Source: Anthocerotibacter panamensis C109 (GTDB lineage Bacteria; Cyanobacteriota; Cyanobacteriia; Gloeobacterales; Anthocerotibacteraceae). Taken from it: a stretch of DNA of 64,000 bases. Position numbers and translations under genes: made by a program. Under the pieces are notes generated by a model. That model was not told the DNA's origin and ran no database searches. It saw only the letters and a program-made list of their open reading frames with translations. Numbering within the stretch: the stretch's first letter is position 1; each line of letters begins with the position of its first letter. Below, piece by piece: positions 8,759 through 46,117 of this stretch. The stretch spans positions 2,855,501 to 2,919,500 of the forward strand of contig NZ_CP062698.1 of assembly GCF_018389385.1 (NCBI RefSeq). Direction: 5' to 3'.

Positions 8759-11404
8759 CTATTCGTGCTTATGGTTTTGCTGGATCAGCTTCGCCACCAA
8801 GCCGGTCCATCCGGTCTGATGGCTAGCCCCAATCCCCGCGCCATTATCGCCATGGAAATATTCATAAAAAAGGATGAGGTCTTGCCAATGCGGGTCCGTC
8901 TGGAATTTCGTGGAGCCTCCATAGACAGGCCGCCTGCGGTTGCCATCGCGGGTGAAGATTTGCGTCAGCCGTTGGGACAAGAGCGCGCCCACTTCCCAGA
9001 GGTGCAACCAGTTCCCAGAGCCCGTGGGACACTCGACTTTAAAGTCATCGCCCCAGTAGTGATGAAATCTTTGTAGCGATTCGATGATGAGATAGTTGAT
9101 CGGGAACCAGACCGGGCCGCGCCAATTGGAGTTACCCCCAAAGAGGCCACTGCTCGACTCAGCCGGCTCGTAATCGACCCGGTGCTCCTGTCCGTTGACC
9201 TTAAAAATATAGGGATGCTCGTGGTGATAGCGGGAAATAGCCCGGATGCCGTATTCAGCCAAAAACTCTTTTTCATCGAGCAGTTTCGCTAGGATGCGTT
9301 GGAGTTTTTCTTTGTAGCAGATGGCGAGCAGGCGGCGCGCACCCATGCCCTGTGTCTCCAAACAGGCGACATTTTTCGTCAGTTTGGGGCGGTTGCGGAT
9401 AAACCATTCCAGCCGCGCTTTAAATCCAGGGAGTTTATCCAGAATATCAGGCTCTAAAGTTGCCACAGCAAAGAGGGGAATGAGCCCCACTATCGAACGG
9501 ACTTTCAAGCGCAATTGCGGTCCGTGGGGCAGATGCAGGACGTCATAATAAAAACCGTCTTCTTCATCCCACAATTGGGTAGCACTCCCCCCTACTTTAT
9601 TCATCGCGTCAGCAATATAGAGGAAATGCTCGAAAAACTTCGTGGCGATATCCTCGTAGACCGGGTTCTCGCGGGCTAATTCCAGGGCAATGGTCAGCAT
9701 ATTCAGGCAATACATGCCCATCCAGCTTGTGCCGTCCGCCTGCTCAATATAGCCTCCGGTGGGCAAGGCATTACTGCGGTCAAAGACCCCGATATTATCA
9801 AGGCCCAAAAAGCCTCCTTCAAAGACGTTCTTGCCCTCGCGGTCCTTACGGTTGACCCACCAAGTAAAGTTGAGCAAGAGCTTCTGAAAGACCCGCTCCA
9901 GGAAGGCACGGTCCCCGTGACCGGAGTTTTTCTGGTCAATCTTATAGACGCGCCAGGTGGCCCAGGCATGTACCGGTGGATTAACGTCTCCAAACGCCCA
10001 TTCGTAGGCGGGGAGCTGACCATTGGGGTGCATGTACCATTCGCGGGTGATGATGTCCAACTGCTGCTTGGCAAATTCCGGGTCTACCATCGCTAAGGGA
10101 ATGGTATGAAAAGCCAAATCCCAAGCTGCAAACCAGGGATATTCCCAGGTATCGGGCATGGAGAGCACTTCTTCGCAGGCTAAGTGGCTCCATTGGCGGT
10201 TGCGGCCCTGTTGCCGCCCATGGGGAGGTTCCGGCCCATTAAGGTCCCCATTTAGCCAGGGCTCCACTTCGTAGTGGTAGTACTGTTTGCTCCAGAGCAT
10301 CCCTGCTAGAGCCTGACGCAGGATATTACCTTGGTCGGCACTCAGGTGGGCGGGGACATGGTGCTGATAAAATTCATCGGCTTCCTGCCTGCGGGCCTTA
10401 AACAGCTCCTGAAAGGCTAACCCGAAGGGATCAGGCAGTTCGATCTGCTCCGTAAAGCGCAACTGAGCGGTCCGGGTCTCCCCTGCTCCCACGTCAAGCA
10501 GATAATATGCACTGGCCTTGGTGCCGGTCTGCTTGGGATTGACGGCATGTTCCTTGCCATGGATGACGTACTCATGAAAGCCATCTTTGACAAAGGGCGA
10601 AGCGTTGGTGCTGCCAAACAGACGGGTCGCGTTGGTTTCATTCTCCGTAAAGAGCAGTTCTCCCGCCCGGTTACAGAACAGCCAGCGCTGACCCAGTGTG
10701 GGATGGATGCTCTCGATTACAGGTCGGGCGTTGCGCCAGAGTCCTTTTAGAAAGGGTTTCTTATCGGTGTTGCCCCAGGACCAAGTGTTGCGGAACCAAA
10801 GCGTGGGCAGCAGATGAATAGGTTTAGCCTCCGGTCCCCGGTTGGTTACGCTAATTTGAATCAAAATATCTTCCGGTCCGCCCTTGGCATATTCCACCAC
10901 CACATCGAAGTAGCGGTCTTCGTCAAATACCCCGGTATCGAGCAGTTCAAACTCCGGGTCACGCCGGGAGCGCTTGCGATTCTCATCCACTAATTTCGTA
11001 TAGGGAAAGGCCGCTTGAGGATATTTGTAGAGATATTTCATATAAGAATGGGTCGGGGTGCTGTCCAGATAAAAGTAATATTCTTTGACATCCTCCCCGT
11101 GATTGCCCTCCGAGCCCGTCAGACCAAAGAGGCGTTCCTTGAGAATCGGGTCAGTTCCATTCCATAGCGCCAGCGCAAAACAGAGCTGCTGCTTATCATC
11201 AGAGATCCCAGCAATCCCATCTTCGCCCCAGCGGTAGGCGCGGGCGCGGGCGTGGTCGTGCGGAAAATAGTCCCAGGCGGCTCCAGTGGCGCTATAGTCT
11301 TCGCGGACGGTACCCCACTGCCGTTCACTTAAATAGGGCCCCCATTTTTTCCATGGAAGCTGTTGCGTGCGGGCTGCTTCCAGACGCTGTTGTTCTTGGT
11401 CCAT
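8759..11404 (-). CDS. GH63/MGH1-like glycoside hydrolase (putative glucosidase)
   Basis: 881 aa, the usual length for this cyanobacterial and bacterial family. The N-terminal part is a beta-rich domain; the C-terminal half carries the (alpha/alpha)6-barrel motifs of GH63-like enzymes ([48 protein letters not shown]). No signal peptide is visible, so it is probably cytoplasmic. Relatives act on alpha-glucosides or on glucosyl- and mannosylglycerate. The substrate here is not readable; compatible-solute or glycogen-derived sugars are guesses. The start is supported by a strong SD (GGGGAGGAG) just upstream of the ATG. Confidence 0.8.
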
Positions 11405-11548
11405 AGCTCCTCCCCACTAACTGCGCTGGGTCTTCTATAAGATATACGCAGGTGCAATATTGCTTGGATGAAAGTTGCTCAGCGCGCTACGGACGCCTTG
11501 GAAGAATTTTATGCTCCCTAACTTGCGCATGAGGGTCTGTTCAGCGGG

Positions 11549-12427
11549 TCATAAGAAGCGATCCATCACCAACCCCGCCGCAAGCAGTATCCCTCCCAAA
11601 AAATGCACCTGGATCACCATGGGCATCGCCATTCCCACTTTCTGGGGTTGGTCATGGAACTGATTGACCCAGGAAAATAACGGACGCGATAGCACAACCG
11701 TACCCAAAACCAGGAGCGTAGGCCAGGGCAGCACCCCGGTCACCACAAAGAGGACCACCCATCCATAGAGCGCCACGAACAGCCAAATCATCCGGCGAGC
11801 AGCCAATTTCGTCCCCCACCGGACAATGGGCGAGCGCTTGCCCGCCTCACGGTCATCGGCGATTTGCGCGAAGTGATGCGTGTAGAGAATCAGGCTGGTC
11901 AACGTCCCCACGATTAGCGAAGCCGCCAAGGCGCTCCCGAGCCACTGCTGCGTCTGAGCATAGGCGCTCACGGTCACGGCGATGGGACCAAAGCAGAGGA
12001 AGGAGATGATTTCGCCCACTCCCCGGTAGGACAGCCGCAAGGGTGGACCCTGGTAGGCATAGCCCAAAAGACATCCGACTGTGCTAGCCGCCACGATGGC
12101 CCAATCCTGCTGTAGCCACGCGAGTAGACCAAAGGCGAACGCCCCCAACCCCAAGCAAAGATTCCCGAGCCAGAAGATACGTTGGGGCTGACCGGTCAGG
12201 TTGACCAAGGACCAGGGTTTATTCTTGTCCACACCCGTCTCGGCATCGAAGACATCATTGGTCAGGTTGATCCAGGCTTGAATCAGGATGAGCCCGACCA
12301 AGGCGAGGACAAAAAAGAGCGGATGGAAGGTTCCTGTTTGCTGGAACGCAGCGGCGGTACCCACCAAAACCGGGACCGCGGCGGCGGAATAGATGGCGGG
12401 ATTGAGGGCTGCTTGCCAAGGGTTCAT
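11549..12427 (-). CDS. menA: 1,4-dihydroxy-2-naphthoate prenyl/phytyltransferase (MenA, UbiA family)
   Basis: 292 aa, a multi-pass membrane protein with the two Asp-rich motifs of UbiA prenyltransferases: NDVFDAETGVD near residue 57 and DDREAGKRS around residue 192. In cyanobacteria MenA attaches a prenyl or phytyl chain to the naphthoquinone ring, the step before methylation to the photosystem I quinone. The start codon overlaps the stop of the upstream methyltransferase (ATGA), so the two are translationally coupled in the same pathway. This coupling strengthens the MenA call over other UbiA family members. Confidence 0.88.
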   Translation of the reverse strand: MNPWQAALNPAIYSAAAVPVLVGTAAAFQQTGTFHPLFFVLALVGLILIQAWINLTNDVFDAETGVDKNKPWSLVNLTGQPQRIFWLGNLCLGLGAFAFGLLAWLQQDWAIVAASTVGCLLGYAYQGPPLRLSYRGVGEIISFLCFGPIAVTVSAYAQTQQWLGSALAASLIVGTLTSLILYTHHFAQIADDREAGKRSPIVRWGTKLAARRMIWLFVALYGWVVLFVVTGVLPWPTLLVLGTVVLSRPLFSWVNQFHDQPQKVGMAMPMVIQVHFLGGILLAAGLVMDRFL

Positions 12428-38589: not shown

Positions 38590-39949
38590 ATTGCTCAGAA
38601 GTTGCCCCGAGGCGTGGGAACAGCTGCCGCATGTTCCTGGCTGGCACCGTGACTGCCGCTACCGCAGCTGTCGGTGCGATTTCTGCTGTCAACGCGCAGT
38701 TGATCGGCCCGACTTCGGTAAAGCAGCGCCTCAAAGATGCTACGGATGTGCGGGAAAATGTTGCCAAGTTCCAGTAAGATGCTCCTCTACTTCCTCACCC
38801 GAGCAACAACGACGAGGCCTTGTTTGCTAATAGGATCGGCAGCTACTCCAAGGGCTTACCCCACAACAACTTGGGGGAAGTAGACCTCAACGCCTACAAC
38901 TCCTTGATCAACGCAGTCTCCTCGGGAAACCCAGCGGATTACGAGAGGATCATCTTGGGTGCCCCGGCTGGTTATCTCGCAGTTCCTGCTACAGCCTATT
39001 CCCTACGGTGCTCAGCAAGCGCTCCCCCAGGCCATCAACGCGCCGACGATTGGGCTGGACTATATGACGCAGTACGCCGAGTGGCTGTCGATTGAGCGTA
39101 GCTTTGCCCCTGCTCAACCCCAGACCTTTGAGCCGGAGCTGAAGTTCCTCTACAGCGGTCGGGCCTTGGCCCAATGGGTGCACATCGACTGGCCCTACAA
39201 CTCTCCTTTGAACGCTTGCTTGATCCTGTTGGGCTACGGGTCGGGTGCTTTTGATGCAGGCAACCCCTACACCGCAACCAACTCCCTGACTCAGCAAGGC
39301 TTCAACACCTTCGGCGGTCCCCACCCGCTCAACTTGGTCTCGAAGGCAGCAGACTTGGCCCTGAAAGCAGCTTGGTTCCAGAAGTGGCAAGTACACCGCC
39401 GCATCCGTCCCGAGATGTTCGGTGGACGCGTCCACAATGTGTTGACGGGTGCAGCCAACTACCCGATCAATTCAGCTCTGCTCAATTCCCCAGTACTGCC
39501 GTTGATTTTCGAGTACAACCGTCAGCAGAACCTCGCCCGGTTTGGTCAGAACGTGGGAACCTATCTGCAAAGCCAGGTCTATCCCGAAGGCTCTCCCACC
39601 CATCCGTCTTACCCCTCCGGCCACGCCACATTTGCAGCAGCAGGGGCTACGGTGCTCAAAGCCTTCTTCAATGAGAGCTTTGTCATCCCCAACCCTGTCC
39701 AACCGTCCCCCGATGGCAGGAGCCTCGTTCCTTACGTAGGCCCCCCCTCACGGTCGGTGGCGAGCTGAACAAACTGGCAGCCAACGTCGTAACATTGGTG
39801 GCGTCCACTGGCTCACCGATGCCCTCGACGGCAACCAGCTTGGTGAAGACACCGCCATCACCCTCCTGCAAGACCTGCGCGGTATCTACAACGAGACCTT
39901 CAACGGCTTCTCGCTCACCCGGTTCAATGGTCAGACGATTACCATCTAA
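38590..39949 (+). pseudogene. Decayed vanadium-dependent haloperoxidase copy
   Basis: Clearly a copy of the intact gene at 41347-43083. Read across frames it shows EVAP-RGN, FLAGTVTAATAAVGAIS, the GSYSKGLPHNNLGEVDLNAYNS block, KWQVHRRIRPEMFGG, PSYPSGHATFAAAG and the C-terminal LTRFNGQTITI. Damage compared with the intact copy: the start region and leader are absent; the Tat twin Arg reads CR; a TAA stop follows the VAKFQ stretch; some 290 bases are deleted in the first half, which shifts the frame; two small deletions near 39745-39795 remove the segment around ARGRDIG. The product cannot be made as one protein. Confidence 0.92.
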
Positions 39950-39962
39950 GCTAAATCCCTGA

Positions 39963-40019: not shown

Positions 40020-40527
40020 GTTAAAAATCCTTGACCGTGCAGAACGGGCCAGCATCGCGGCTCAGAAGCAATACGCTCTACCAATTGGGCCTTGCCTACG
40101 AGCAAGACGACCAACAGGGTAAAGCTATTGACACACCTATGAATCTGCTCTGCCCCTCCAGAAGGAATTCTCTGACCGCAAAACCCAAGCCGATATCTAC
40201 ACCAGGCTTGGCAGCATCTACGAAAATAAGAGTCAATACCCCAAGGCATTAGCAGCCTTCCAGCAAGCCCTCACCCTCCAGCGTGAAGCCTACAGCCAGT
40301 ACGGTCAGCAGCAAATGTTCATCAAAGTGGGTGCGGTCTACAACAAGCTAGGGCAGCCCGCTCAAGCCCTAGACGCCTACGAAAAGGCCCTGAGTATCGC
40401 TCGCAGTATTGAGGGTGCCATGGGGGAGAAGGCTATTCTCATGAGTTTGGCGAAGACTTACGAAAAACTAGGGCAGAAGGCCAAGGCCCAAACGTACTAC
40501 AAGCAAGCAGCAACCCTAGAGACATAG
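40020..40527 (+). pseudogene. Decayed TPR protein copy (3' part only)
   Basis: Matches the second half of the intact TPR gene at 43999-44964: NTLYQLGLAYEQ, ALAAFQQALTLQREAYSQYGQQQMF, QALDAYEKALSIAR and KTYEKLGQKAKA can be read, with a frameshift near 40136. The signal peptide, first repeats and the whole HEAT gene that should precede it are missing. It confirms that the decayed unit was once haloperoxidase-(HEAT)-TPR. Confidence 0.85.
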
Positions 40528-40618: not shown

Positions 40619-41241
40619 AGAATGGGGTGGGGCTGGAGGTTGGGGGCTTTTACGGCTCAAGGAGGCTTGCTATATAGGGTAAATTCAGTGGCGATTCCTC
40701 CAACTATCCGTGTGCTGCATGGGGCTTTTGTTAAAGCAACAATCGTTCAACCTAGAGACGCTAATCATGTCCCAAACAGGTCCTACCCTACGGTTTACCC
40801 AGGATTTCACCACCCGCTTCGTCACAACACCTAGCCCAGTCTATTAGGGTACACACTTTGGGAGCAGAATATCTCCTGCTTGATAAAGTTATCTTAAAGA
40901 TAAAAGTACTGGTACAAACCAATAATCTTCCAAACTAACGGTACAGCCAGAAACCAGTCCGAGTTAAGGTGATGGCCGTTACATCAAGCAGCAATATCTG
41001 TTACATCGAGGTGTGACACTTATCTTTTTTATTGAAAAATATTAGGGCTATGTTAAGGCAACATAAAGCAATTTTTGACCCATCCTTAACGCTTGATGAA
41101 TTCTTCATTAACTTGTGACTGAGCTACCTTGACTTTTAGTTTACCTACGGTATTATACCTACGTACCCATCCCTGTCGGGCTGTTGAACCGTAGAATCAC
41201 CTAGACCAAATACGTCAGGACCAAGTGTTCTGCGCCTGTAA

Positions 41242-41273
41242 CCAGACAAAACTCAGTCCTTGGTTTTGTTTGG
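41242..41273 (+). promoter_or_regulatory. Hairpin in the haloperoxidase leader
   Basis: CCAGACAAAAC pairs with GTTTTGTTTGG over 11 positions (one G-T wobble) around a 10-base loop, 73 bases before the GTG start. It is absent from the decayed copy, which lost this region. A role in translation control or mRNA stability is only a possibility. Confidence 0.45.
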
Positions 41274-41346: not shown

Positions 41347-43083
41347 GTGACTGAAAACTTGATGCCTGAGTCCAATGCTACTCAGGAAGCAGATCTCATT
41401 GAAACCACTAGTGAGCCGGAAGTTGCCCCCAAGCGCGGCAACAGCCGCCGTATGTTCCTGGCTGGAACCGTGACGGCAGCTACCGCCGCTGTCGGTGCGA
41501 TCACTGCGGCTAACGCGCAGTTGATCGGTCCGACCAGTGTGAAACAGCGGCTTAAAGACGCCCAACAGCTACGCACCACGACTGCCAGAGTTGAGAGTGG
41601 AGCACCGCTCGTCCCGCATCCAGCTAATAATGATGAAGCCCTGTACTTCAACAAGATCGGCAGCTACTCTAAGGGCTTGCCCCACAACAACTTGGGCGAA
41701 GTAGACCTCAACGCTTACAACTCCTTGATCAATGCCGTTTCTTCCGGCGATCCGGTGGCCTACAACAACATCATCCTAGGTACTAACCCGCCCCAAGTGC
41801 GCCTGACCGATCCGCAGAACGCGTTGGCCTTTACCCTGGAAGGACAAGACTCCCACAACTACACCATGCCTGCCGCTTATGCCTTCTCTAGCGAGGAAGA
41901 AGCTGGTGAGATGGTTGAGCTGTACTGGATGGCGCTCTTGCGGGATGTTCCCTTCTCCGAGTATCCCACCAACCCCTTGGCAATCCAGGCTGCTGCTGAC
42001 CTGAACCGTTTTCAGGACTACATCGGAGTCACCCCAGCGACCCTCTTCCGCTCCCCTGTTGCTGGGAATGCGGTTGGTCCCTACGTCTCGCAGTTCCTGC
42101 TACAGCCTATTCCCTACGGTGCTCAGCAGGCCGTCCCTCAGGCCATCAACGCGCCGACGATTGGGCTGGACTATATGACGCAGTACGCCGAGTGGCTGTC
42201 GATTGAGCGTGGCTTTGCCCCTGCTCAACCCCAGACCTTTGAGCCGCAACTGAAGTTCCTCTATAGTGGTCGGACCCTCGCCCAGTGGGTGCACATCGAC
42301 TGGCCCTACAACTCTACCTTGAACGCTTGCTTGATCCTGTTGGGCTACGGGTCGGGTGCTTTTGATGCAGGCAACCCCTATACCCTGGCTAACTCCCGGA
42401 CCCAGCAAGGCTTCAACACCTTCGGCGGTCCCCACCCGCTCAACTTGGTCTCGAAGGCAGCAGACTTGGCCCTGAAAGCAGCTTGGTTCCAGAAGTGGCA
42501 AGTACACCGCCGCATCCGTCCCGAGATGTTCGGTGGACGCGTCCACAACCAGTTGGTTGGCGCGGCTAACTACCCGATCAATTCAGCTCTGCTCAATTCT
42601 CCGGTACTGCCCCTGATTTTCGAGCATAACCGCCAGCAGAACCTCGCCCGGTTTGGTCAGAACGTCGGAACTTATCTGCAACCTCAGGTCTTTCCCGAAG
42701 GTTCTCCCACCCATCCGTCCTATCCCTCCGGTCACGCTACATTTGCAGCAGCAGGGGCTACGGTACTCAAAGCCTTCTTCAATGAGAGCTTTGTCATCCC
42801 CCGCCCGGTCAAGCCTACTCCCGATGGTCTGGGTCTCGAACCTTACATCGTCGGGGTGGATGGTCCTGCCCTGACCATAGGCGGCGAGTTGAATAAATTG
42901 GCAGCCAACGTCGCGCGTGGGCGTGATATTGGTGGCGTCCACTGGCGCACCGATGCCCTCAACGGCAACCAACTCGGCGAAGACACCGCCATCACCCTCC
43001 TGCAAGACCTGCGCGGCATCTACAACGAGACCTTCGCAGGCTTCTCGCTCACCCGGTTCAACGGCCAGACGATCACTATCTAA
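41347..43083 (+). CDS. Vanadium-dependent haloperoxidase-like protein, Tat-exported
   Basis: 578 aa from the GTG at 41347, supported by GGAG seven bases upstream; the ORF is open to 41260. An N-terminal Tat signal (NSRRMFLAGTVTAATAAVGA...NAQ) follows about 30 polar residues. The C-terminal half has the three vanadate/phosphate-binding motifs of the PAP2/haloperoxidase superfamily: KWQVHRRIRPE, PSYPSGHATFAAAG and ARGRDIGGVHW. Such enzymes oxidise halides with hydrogen peroxide or act as acid phosphatases; the sequence alone does not decide. Exported HEAT and TPR genes follow on the same strand, and a decayed copy lies upstream. Confidence 0.88.
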   Translation: MTENLMPESNATQEADLIETTSEPEVAPKRGNSRRMFLAGTVTAATAAVGAITAANAQLIGPTSVKQRLKDAQQLRTTTARVESGAPLVPHPANNDEALYFNKIGSYSKGLPHNNLGEVDLNAYNSLINAVSSGDPVAYNNIILGTNPPQVRLTDPQNALAFTLEGQDSHNYTMPAAYAFSSEEEAGEMVELYWMALLRDVPFSEYPTNPLAIQAAADLNRFQDYIGVTPATLFRSPVAGNAVGPYVSQFLLQPIPYGAQQAVPQAINAPTIGLDYMTQYAEWLSIERGFAPAQPQTFEPQLKFLYSGRTLAQWVHIDWPYNSTLNACLILLGYGSGAFDAGNPYTLANSRTQQGFNTFGGPHPLNLVSKAADLALKAAWFQKWQVHRRIRPEMFGGRVHNQLVGAANYPINSALLNSPVLPLIFEHNRQQNLARFGQNVGTYLQPQVFPEGSPTHPSYPSGHATFAAAGATVLKAFFNESFVIPRPVKPTPDGLGLEPYIVGVDGPALTIGGELNKLAANVARGRDIGGVHWRTDALNGNQLGEDTAITLLQDLRGIYNETFAGFSLTRFNGQTITI

Positions 43084-43100
43084 GGTCGCTTGAACCCCAG

Positions 43101-43150
43101 ACCCTGCTCTTCCTGTATTATCAGGTTGGGCAGGGTTCCTCTAAATTTTT
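43101..43150 (+). terminator. Stem-loop between haloperoxidase and HEAT genes
   Basis: Outer stem ACCCTGC/GCAGGGT (43101-43107 with 43130-43136) and inner CCTG/CAGG. A T run follows nine bases later, just before the HEAT start codon. It could act as a partial terminator or attenuator that lowers expression of the following genes. Confidence 0.5.
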
Positions 43151-43163
43151 GGTGGACTTCAAT

Positions 43164-43922
43164 ATGGGCATCTACTTCCGCAAGCTCAGTTGCGTGCTCT
43201 TGATCACGGCCATGATGAGTCTGAGCTTTCAGGCGTTAGCTCAGGCTCCCGCTAGCCTTTCTGTTCCTAAAACAAACGGCTCGGGGGTCCAGCAGCGCCT
43301 GGATGCTATTCGTTATCTAGACAGTACCCGTTCTACTGATGCCGTGCGGGCACTGACGAAGTTCCTCCAAGATCCAGCGCCTGAGGTTCGCGGAGCTGCT
43401 ATCTTGGCCCTGGGTCGGATGGGTCCCGCCGCCCAAACTATTGTCCCTGAACTTACTAAGGCCCTGGAAGACAAAGATGCTGGGGTGCGTGGCAAAAGTG
43501 CTTCGGCTTTGGGGAGCATCCATACTGGCGCGGAAACTGCCGTCCCAGCCCTGACTCTGGCGCTTAAAGATCCTGATTTGGGCGTGCGCAACACCGCCGC
43601 CGGAGCCCTCGGACGCTTTGGAGCGAAAGCAGCATCAGCGGTTCCTGCGCTGGCAGAATTAATTCACAAAGAGCCAGAGCAATATGTACGTGAGGGTGTG
43701 GCCGATGCCTTGGGTAACCTGGGTGTGGCAGCTGTACCTGCCTTAATCGATGCGCTGGTAGACAAAAGACCAGGAGTCCGCACGCGTGCGGCGTTGGCCC
43801 TTGGTGCTATCGGGCCTGCGGCAAAAGAAGCGATACCTGCCTTGATGAAGGCAGAGCAGATGGATCCGGTGGCTACCATGCGAGGGTTTGCTTCTGTTGC
43901 CCTCAAGCAGATCAAGGGTTAA
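43164..43922 (+). CDS. Exported HEAT-repeat protein
   Basis: 252 aa from the ATG at 43164, with GGTGGA upstream. A signal peptide (CVLLITAMMSLSFQALAQA) is followed by about six HEAT/PBS-lyase-like repeats of roughly 31-38 residues with the pattern DPxxxVRxxAAxALGxxG. HEAT solenoids bind other proteins. As part of the haloperoxidase-HEAT-TPR set it is probably a periplasmic or extracellular scaffold. Phycobilin lyase activity is unlikely, given the export signal. Confidence 0.85.
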   Translation: MGIYFRKLSCVLLITAMMSLSFQALAQAPASLSVPKTNGSGVQQRLDAIRYLDSTRSTDAVRALTKFLQDPAPEVRGAAILALGRMGPAAQTIVPELTKALEDKDAGVRGKSASALGSIHTGAETAVPALTLALKDPDLGVRNTAAGALGRFGAKAASAVPALAELIHKEPEQYVREGVADALGNLGVAAVPALIDALVDKRPGVRTRAALALGAIGPAAKEAIPALMKAEQMDPVATMRGFASVALKQIKG

Positions 43923-43998
43923 GTCTTGCCTGCGTTTCATCCCGCGCTACCGGCAGGTCTTGGGATAACCACCTGTTTTCTATCCAAGGGCAACGAAC

Positions 43999-44964
43999 AT
44001 GCAAAAATACACATACGTTCTTCTGATTGGCCTCGCCTCAGCTAGTCTGATGATGTCGCCTATTGGCCTTCCTGGCATCCCTTTCCAAAGTCGCGTTCTC
44101 GCTCAAGGCGCTTCAACAACTGCTGTTATTACTCCGACTCCTACAGACCAAGCTTTTGAGCTGAAAAGATTGGCTGATGATAAGTTTGGACAATCTCAAT
44201 TCGCTGCTTCTATAGAGCTATACAAGCAGGCGTTAGATGCCGAAAAAAAGCTAGGCAATCAATCCCGTGCCGCTCAGATCTTGCAGCAAATGGGCGCTAC
44301 CTACGTCCTGCTGAAAAATGACAATCAAGCCCTCGATGCCTATCAACAAGCTTCAGTTATCTACAAAAATCTTAAAGACCCTGAAGAAGCCGAAGCCTTG
44401 TACCATAGCGGGGAGGTTTACACAAACTTGCATCAGTACGATAAGGCTATCGCCGCCTATCAAAAATCACTAGCCTTGCAAAAAAAGCCAGAGACTCGCC
44501 TGCGGGGAAACGCGCTCTATAAGTTAGGCATTGCTTATGAGCAGACGGGCCAGCCCGACAAAGCGCTCAGTGCTTATCAACCCGCCGTCTTGATCCAGAA
44601 GAACTTTTTTGATCGCGTCGCCCTAAGCGATACGCTGATCCGAGTGGGAACTATTTACCAGAAGAAGAAACAGTATCCCAAAGCCTTAGAAGCATTTCAG
44701 CAAGCCCTCACCGTCAAGCGCGAAACCTTTAGCCAGTTCGGCCAGCAACAGATGTACAACAAAATCGCTCAGGTCTACCTCCAGCTCAATGAACCCTCAA
44801 AGGCCCTAGAGTCCTACGAACAGGCTCTAAAGATTGCGCGAGCCATTAAGGACCGCAAAGGTGAAAAAGTCATTCTCACAAGTCTAGGAACCATCTACGA
44901 AAAAGTAGGCCAGAAGACCAAAGCCTCCGAAGCTTTGAAGCAAGCAGAAGCCCTTGGGGGTTGA
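43999..44964 (+). CDS. Exported TPR protein
   Basis: 321 aa. A signal peptide (YVLLIGLASASLMMSP...VLAQG) precedes some six TPR units with alternate ALxxYxxALxI patterns (QALDAYQQASVIYKNL, AIAAYQKSLALQKK, ALEAFQQALTVKRE, ALESYEQALKIAR). It is a probable protein-binding scaffold and the third gene of the exported set. The stop TGA lies at the edge of the adjoining insertion element, whose end begins TTGACATCCTCCCG, so the last codon(s) and stop may have been supplied by the element. Length matches the decayed copy. Confidence 0.85.
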   Translation: MQKYTYVLLIGLASASLMMSPIGLPGIPFQSRVLAQGASTTAVITPTPTDQAFELKRLADDKFGQSQFAASIELYKQALDAEKKLGNQSRAAQILQQMGATYVLLKNDNQALDAYQQASVIYKNLKDPEEAEALYHSGEVYTNLHQYDKAIAAYQKSLALQKKPETRLRGNALYKLGIAYEQTGQPDKALSAYQPAVLIQKNFFDRVALSDTLIRVGTIYQKKKQYPKALEAFQQALTVKRETFSQFGQQQMYNKIAQVYLQLNEPSKALESYEQALKIARAIKDRKGEKVILTSLGTIYEKVGQKTKASEALKQAEALGG

Positions 44965-45014: not shown

Positions 45015-46117
45015 CTAGAGCGTTTCTGCTTCACAGGGAGTACCCTCAGCAGACTTCTTGACCGAGTGCCCCCCGGCTGCAATTAAACCTCTCATCTTTA
45101 TGACTTGAGCGGCGGCGACATCCCTATCTGCGGTATACCCACATTCAGGACAGTGATGTACCCGTTCACTCAGCTCTTTCTTGCCTGTGTTAACCCCACA
45201 CTCAGGGCATAGCTGACTGGTGTAGTTAGCGTCAACTTTGGCAAAGAAGACCCCACGCTTGAAACTCACCCAATTCAAAATGTTGAGGAACTGACCAAAA
45301 CCAGCATCTAACGTATGCTTACACAGCATCCCTCTAGACATGGCTTTGAAGTTCAAGTCCTCAGTAAATAGCATCCCCGCCCCATTGCAGAGGTGGTGCA
45401 CTGTCTTGAAATGAAAGTCCTTGCGGGTATCGGCTATCTCTTGGTTGGGTCGCTTAACGGTTTCACCCTCTGAAGTTGCCAAGAAGCTCAACAATCCTAA
45501 GTCTATTCCTAGTGCTCTACCGTGAGGTTCCACATCAGGAACAGAAACATCCGATTGCAAAGTAAGTATGGCAAACCATCCACTCACCTTACGCCACTCG
45601 CCTTACGCACAATCCTGACTTGCTTCAAATCGAAGCCTTCAGGAATTGGACGACTCAGCCGCATATCAATAAAACCAAAGCTAGGGAGCTTTAACCTGTT
45701 TCCTTGCACAGCGTCCTGAGCTAGCTGAGGGAATAGAAAGGAACGCATCCGACCAGCTTTCTTAAACCGTGGCATCCCCCGCCCACTGTCATACATCCCT
45801 ACAAAGGCTTTCTCTAACTGAGATAGGACCTGTTACAGTACTTGAGAATGCACGAGCTTAAGATGAGGAAAAGCACTCTTAGCTGCGGTTAGTGCCTTGC
45901 ACTGGCTGGCATACGTGGGTCTGGGCACATCCGCAGCAATAATGAACTCCTTGCGGATGCTGCATCGGTCCATCGGGCAACTTCGAGAATTAAACCAATT
46001 TTTCCGTTCAGCAAGAGCATAATTCCAAACCCCACAGCATATCTCTAGCTACTGAGTCATGGTCGCCGCTTGCTCAACGGTTGGCTCAAGCTTGTACTCG
46101 AAGTTCATGATTAACAT
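45015..46117 (-). pseudogene. tnpB, disrupted (RNA-guided nuclease ancestor of Cas12)
   Basis: The full length can be traced from MLIMNFEYKLEP at 46117 to the C-terminus at 45015. Two in-frame stops (TAG after about 20 codons and TAA after about 90) and a frameshift near 45587 break it. Intact parts: RuvC-I GIDLGL, RuvC-II FTEDLN with Glu, zinc finger CPECG...CPECG, and RuvC-III ADRDVAAAQ. The C-terminal piece of about 190 aa is open and well preserved, so decay is recent compared with the remnant at 27365. Confidence 0.88.

Follow-up and report, generated by a model that had tools for sequence, protein, structure and literature searches.

Predicted exported vanadium-dependent haloperoxidases linked to a TPR gene in the genome of Anthocerotibacter panamensis

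In the genome of the cyanobacterium Anthocerotibacter panamensis C109, a gene for a predicted vanadium-dependent haloperoxidase (VHPO) with an export signal is linked to a gene for a TPR protein. The window analyzed here, a stretch of 64,000 nucleotides (positions 2,855,501-2,919,500 of a single 4,187,797-base contig), carries three adjacent open reading frames on the same strand, encoding the VHPO, a HEAT-repeat protein and a TPR protein and separated by gaps of 80 and 76 bp (Table 1). The overall explanation that we find best, and to which we give a little better than an even chance, is that an exported VHPO and a TPR protein became linked in this lineage, that the pair was duplicated, that the TPR protein likely serves as an accessory and that the HEAT protein is an extra.

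Table 1. Features in and around the haloperoxidase locus; positions are counted from the first nucleotide of the window.
Feature	Position	Strand	Evidence
Decayed VHPO copy	38598..39949	+	sequence comparison with intact copy
Decayed TPR copy, C-terminal half only, frame broken	40022..40527	+	genome search
Promoter-like hexamers TTGACT-16-TATTAT and leader GTACCCATCCCTGTCGGGCTGTTGAAC	41129..41250	+	common to second VHPO-TPR copy
Vanadium-dependent haloperoxidase (VHPO), 578 aa, Tat signal	41347..43083	+	phmmer, alignment, AlphaFold model, structure matches
Stable GC-rich hairpin just 3' of VHPO stop codon	43100..43137	+	folding z about -4
HEAT-repeat protein, 252 aa, Sec-like signal	43164..43922	+	domain search, genome search
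TPR protein, 321 aa, Sec-like signal	43999..44964	+	domain search, genome search

Seaweeds and some cyanobacteria make hypohalous acid from peroxide with vanadium-dependent haloperoxidases. In a phmmer search of the PDB, the product of the first gene matches only such enzymes, of the brown-algal, red-algal and cyanobacterial type; the best match is Ascophyllum nodosum 1qi9 (2.5e-79), others are Corallina 1qhb and Acaryochloris 5lpc, and no phosphatase appears among these matches. When aligned with 1qi9, the vanadate site is complete (K383, R391, S461, G462, H463, R526 and H532, seven of seven), as it is in both full-length copies of the enzyme, and the protein also has W380 and H456. With 28 relatives as input, AlphaFold gave a model (pLDDT 87.7, pTM 0.85) that superimposes on 1qi9 with TM scores of 0.81/0.84 (E 6.9e-41), and TM by query lies at 0.77-0.82 against 1qi9, 1up8, 1qhb, 5aa6 and 5lpc. 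Judged by sequence and modeled fold, the protein adds a member to an established family of enzymes, the vanadium-dependent haloperoxidases of the algal and cyanobacterial bromoperoxidase type.

A sequence-only reading of the same DNA had described the product as a haloperoxidase/PAP2 enzyme, and the haloperoxidase half of this description is borne out by the phmmer match and the fold. An exported PAP2-type acid phosphatase would have the fold core and the vanadate/phosphate site in common with it, and PAP2 is the sole Pfam match of the protein (25.4 bits, just below the Pfam cut-off). The matches to bromoperoxidases, however, reach E values of 1e-62 to 1e-79 and span nearly the whole chain, N-terminal half included, at a TM of about 0.8, whereas acid phosphatases match the model structurally at E > 0.05 only. 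On sequence and fold we reject a phosphatase, a reading to which we leave next to no probability.

The Ascophyllum enzyme shares its fold with this protein along almost the entire chain, as well as every vanadate ligand, the tryptophan three residues before the catalytic lysine and the histidine five residues before the vanadate-site serine, but it is 34% identical, and the protein described here has a bacterial Tat signal and TPR and HEAT genes as neighbors. The tryptophan, Trp380 here, is likewise found in fungal chloroperoxidase. The Corallina bromoperoxidases (1qhb, 1up8), red-algal enzymes of the same family and fold, have arginine instead of tryptophan at this position. So does AmVHPO of Acaryochloris marina (5lpc; PMC11871015), which is cyanobacterial and of the same family, with the same active-site core, but is 30% identical, has a longer chain and carries Arg425 where Trp380 stands here. 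This position influences halide choice, but a tryptophan placed there did not alone turn the Acaryochloris enzyme into a chloroperoxidase (PMC11871015), so W380 and H456 permit no firm halide prediction.

The vanadate site varies among other family members. Alanine or glycine replaces the vanadate-site serine in many bacterial and archaeal relatives (L021, L022, L023, L029, L030, L031, L033, L034, L039-L042, L044, L048, L110; labels denote loci), which keep the lysine, the arginine and both histidines. Three cyanobacterial relatives (L111, L113, L118) have lost both the serine and the histidine, with GGA or GGV for SGH, and in a relative from the Gloeobacter order (L024) the site is mostly gone; from their sequences, these four are probably no longer haloperoxidases, or are decaying.

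Export signals are apparent on all three products. The VHPO likely starts at the GTG at 41347, because the surrounding context GGAGAAAACCTGTG is common to the second copy; a GGAG ribosome site precedes the GTG and is also found at that copy. The N-terminus, SRRMFLAGTVTAATAAVGAITAANA, is a Tat signal in which an SRRMFL motif is followed by a hydrophobic stretch to ANA, as the sequence-only reading had noticed. Tat-like motifs occur in 19 of 28 aligned proteins of the family (both own copies counted), and such a signal is accordingly ordinary for it. The leaders of the HEAT protein (MGIYFRKLSCVLLITAMMSLSFQALA^QA, cleavage ALA^QA) and of the TPR protein (MQKYTYVLLIGLASASLMM...RVLA^QG, cleavage VLA^QG) have a short basic part and then a long hydrophobic part, and are Sec-like by eye. 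The earlier claim that three consecutive genes all carry export signals thus holds, with a Tat signal on the VHPO and Sec-like signals on its two neighbors. Export is probable for all three products, which would reside in the periplasm rather than outside the cell; the HEAT and TPR proteins would get there through Sec.

The copy that bears on whether the genes travel together lies elsewhere in the same genome. At position 1,266,183, 1.63 Mb away, lies a second intact copy consisting of VHPO, hairpin and TPR (ATG at L020:8055), with no HEAT gene between VHPO and TPR. Its VHPO is 80% and its TPR protein 56% identical to the window counterpart, and each intact VHPO has the TPR gene downstream on the same strand. 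The three VHPO copies of the genome, a decayed one included, form one clade in the tree (support 99/99), which implies that the VHPO-TPR pair multiplied inside this lineage. A genome search with the TPR protein ranks the three copies beside haloperoxidases highest; the locus that follows them is 24% identical. The dN/dS ratios of 0.137 for the VHPO and 0.116 for the TPR protein, whose dS is near saturation, indicate that both are under purifying selection, while the genes flanking the two intact loci differ. Beside the second VHPO, an exported peptidase-like gene is partly duplicated (L020:9552-10964 and 11175-11582), with the first 60 residues identical. VHPO and TPR are seen as a linked pair in this genome only, a lineage-specific association that, on sequence evidence, goes beyond chance; since every instance traces to a single genome with a single history of duplication, the linkage counts as one evolutionary event.

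The noncoding parts of the unit are shared as well. Even with up to three mismatches allowed, no site in the genome carries the leader motif other than those preceding the two intact copies. The hairpin follows the VHPO stop codon in all three copies, with z about -4 in each, stems that differ in sequence and pairing that is kept. It may attenuate the downstream genes, which it may thereby uncouple from the enzyme, or protect the upstream message as a 3' stabilizer. Leader and hairpin matched no Rfam family apart from one chance lncRNA hit (E 0.11).

The HEAT gene is present at the window copy only, and its best paralogue in the genome is 45% identical over part of the length. Its tie to the VHPO is weak: there is a single instance, and TPR and HEAT genes are both common in the genome, as counted by genome search only. 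A search of the 12 nearest other genomes for orthologues of the two genes gave generic repeat matches only (best 31% for the TPR protein; 37-48% over part of the length for the HEAT protein). An accessory role for the HEAT protein is unlikely. Immediately downstream of the TPR gene lies a C-terminal remnant of an IS200/IS605-type TnpB (45015-45587, minus strand).

The sequence-only reading had counted a duplication of the unit in favor of genes that travel together. The upstream copy, at 38.6-40.5 kb, proves to be a pseudogene with half a TPR gene and no HEAT sequence. Its VHPO has an in-frame TAA at 38775-38777, CR in place of the Tat RR, a central deletion of ~290 nt, and frameshifting deletions of 13 and 10 nt near the second catalytic arginine. 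A further deletion runs from the hairpin to about TPR residue 155, so the copy cannot say whether a HEAT gene once stood there. Identity between 38590-39960 and 41411-43084 is patchy, at 90-96% in the VHPO core and 60-80% in the N-terminal part, and the TPR remnant has a dS of 1.48 as against 0.27 in the enzyme core; gene conversion between the two tandem VHPO genes, in the core, probably accounts for these differences.

Outside this genome the association disappears. VHPO enzymes were found at E <= 1e-20 in 68 of 390 sampled cyanobacterial genomes (the present one included), and relatives also occur in Bacillota, Actinomycetota, Verrucomicrobiota, Acidobacteriota, Pseudomonadota, Planctomycetota and archaea. 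Their neighborhoods were scanned with consensus TPR and HEAT queries plus the window's own proteins, with the window genes and the second copy as positive controls. Downstream sequence of 1.2 kb or more was available at 56 independent outside loci, and none of these carries a TPR or HEAT gene on the same strand within 6 kb; an opposite-strand one occurred at 4 of the 56, which we take as background. Ten more outside loci, including the two fullest haloperoxidases of genome G008, were left out because their downstream sequence was too short, and five relatives on plasmids fell outside the neighborhood reading. G008, a fragmented relative genome, contains the closest outside homologue, and its three VHPO matches (L021, L022, L028) all lie at contig ends, a position that points to near-repeats having interrupted the assembly. 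A search of the literature for haloperoxidases with tetratricopeptide proteins found nothing relevant. Of the proposal that these genes travel together, VHPO and TPR inside this genome remain, whereas the HEAT gene, absent from the second copy, drops out, and homologues elsewhere have unrelated neighbors. A conserved haloperoxidase-HEAT-TPR cassette is ruled out by the second copy and the 56 outside loci.

The cyanobacterial and macroalgal enzymes are described as releasing hypohalous acid that diffuses freely, and as acting in antifouling and in the oxidative-stress response (PMC8407465). By analogy of sequence and model, the VHPO would fold in the cytoplasm and then be exported by Tat; in the periplasm, with vanadate bound, it would use H2O2 to oxidize a halide to hypohalous acid. 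This acid would halogenate or oxidize organic matter at the cell surface nonspecifically, with consumption of peroxide. Such activity, the halide used and the physiological role are inferred. In this lineage, we suppose, a gene encoding an exported TPR protein came to be linked to the enzyme gene, and duplication placed the pair, with its promoter and leader, at two loci, where selection has kept both genes. The TPR protein may then act as a periplasmic accessory in assembly, anchoring or holding of the VHPO, a role that is plausible and somewhat more probable than its absence, because two old copies have kept the TPR gene; the HEAT gene would be an extra at one locus, and the third, tandem copy would have decayed.

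The main competitor, which we hold to be a real possibility though clearly short of even, is that the neighbors are passengers, with the TPR gene duplicated through adjacency and both solenoid proteins working elsewhere in the envelope. The lack of association outside the genome, the frequency of TPR and HEAT genes within it and the strong hairpin between VHPO and the next gene all fit this view, as does the resemblance of the TPR protein to the front half, signal peptide plus TPR, of exported TPR-CHAT proteins from cyanobacteria such as Tolypothrix WP_045873627.1. Over that half, leader included, the protein from the window aligns at 33%, but it lacks a CHAT domain and adjoins a haloperoxidase. 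The TPR-CHAT proteins matching it (43999-44964; L175) sit on cyanobacterial plasmids. Against mere passengers, both TPR copies still adjoin the enzyme under purifying selection while their other surroundings differ, and one leader is common to both units. The opposite view goes beyond an accessory: the TPR protein would be a dedicated periplasmic adaptor that assembles, anchors or positions the VHPO at the photosynthetic cytoplasmic membrane, with the HEAT protein as a second, copy-specific adaptor. This we regard as improbable. Still less credit goes to the single exported complex suggested at the outset, in which the VHPO sits on HEAT and TPR scaffolds as a machine for defense or surface modification. 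Adjacency on one strand with short gaps, the three export signals and a VHPO-TPR linkage that each intact copy retains speak for it, but the second locus has no HEAT gene, the outside loci show no such neighbors, and a solved cyanobacterial enzyme of the family is a homo-dodecamer without scaffolds (PMC11871015).

Altogether, the reading of an exported VHPO with a lineage-specific TPR neighbor adds exported, Tat-signal enzymes of bromoperoxidase type in an early-branching cyanobacterium, which is mostly an ordinary finding, and disposes of a general haloperoxidase-HEAT-TPR system of three genes. Where thylakoids are lacking, a cyanobacterium has its photosynthetic membrane next to the periplasm, so that peroxide and enzyme could meet there; the periplasm of the host probably faces the membrane at which peroxide could be both made and used. 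One lead stands out, namely the TPR protein that stayed with the VHPO in two old copies, and if it were indeed a dedicated adaptor, a bacterial haloperoxidase would have a scaffold of its own.
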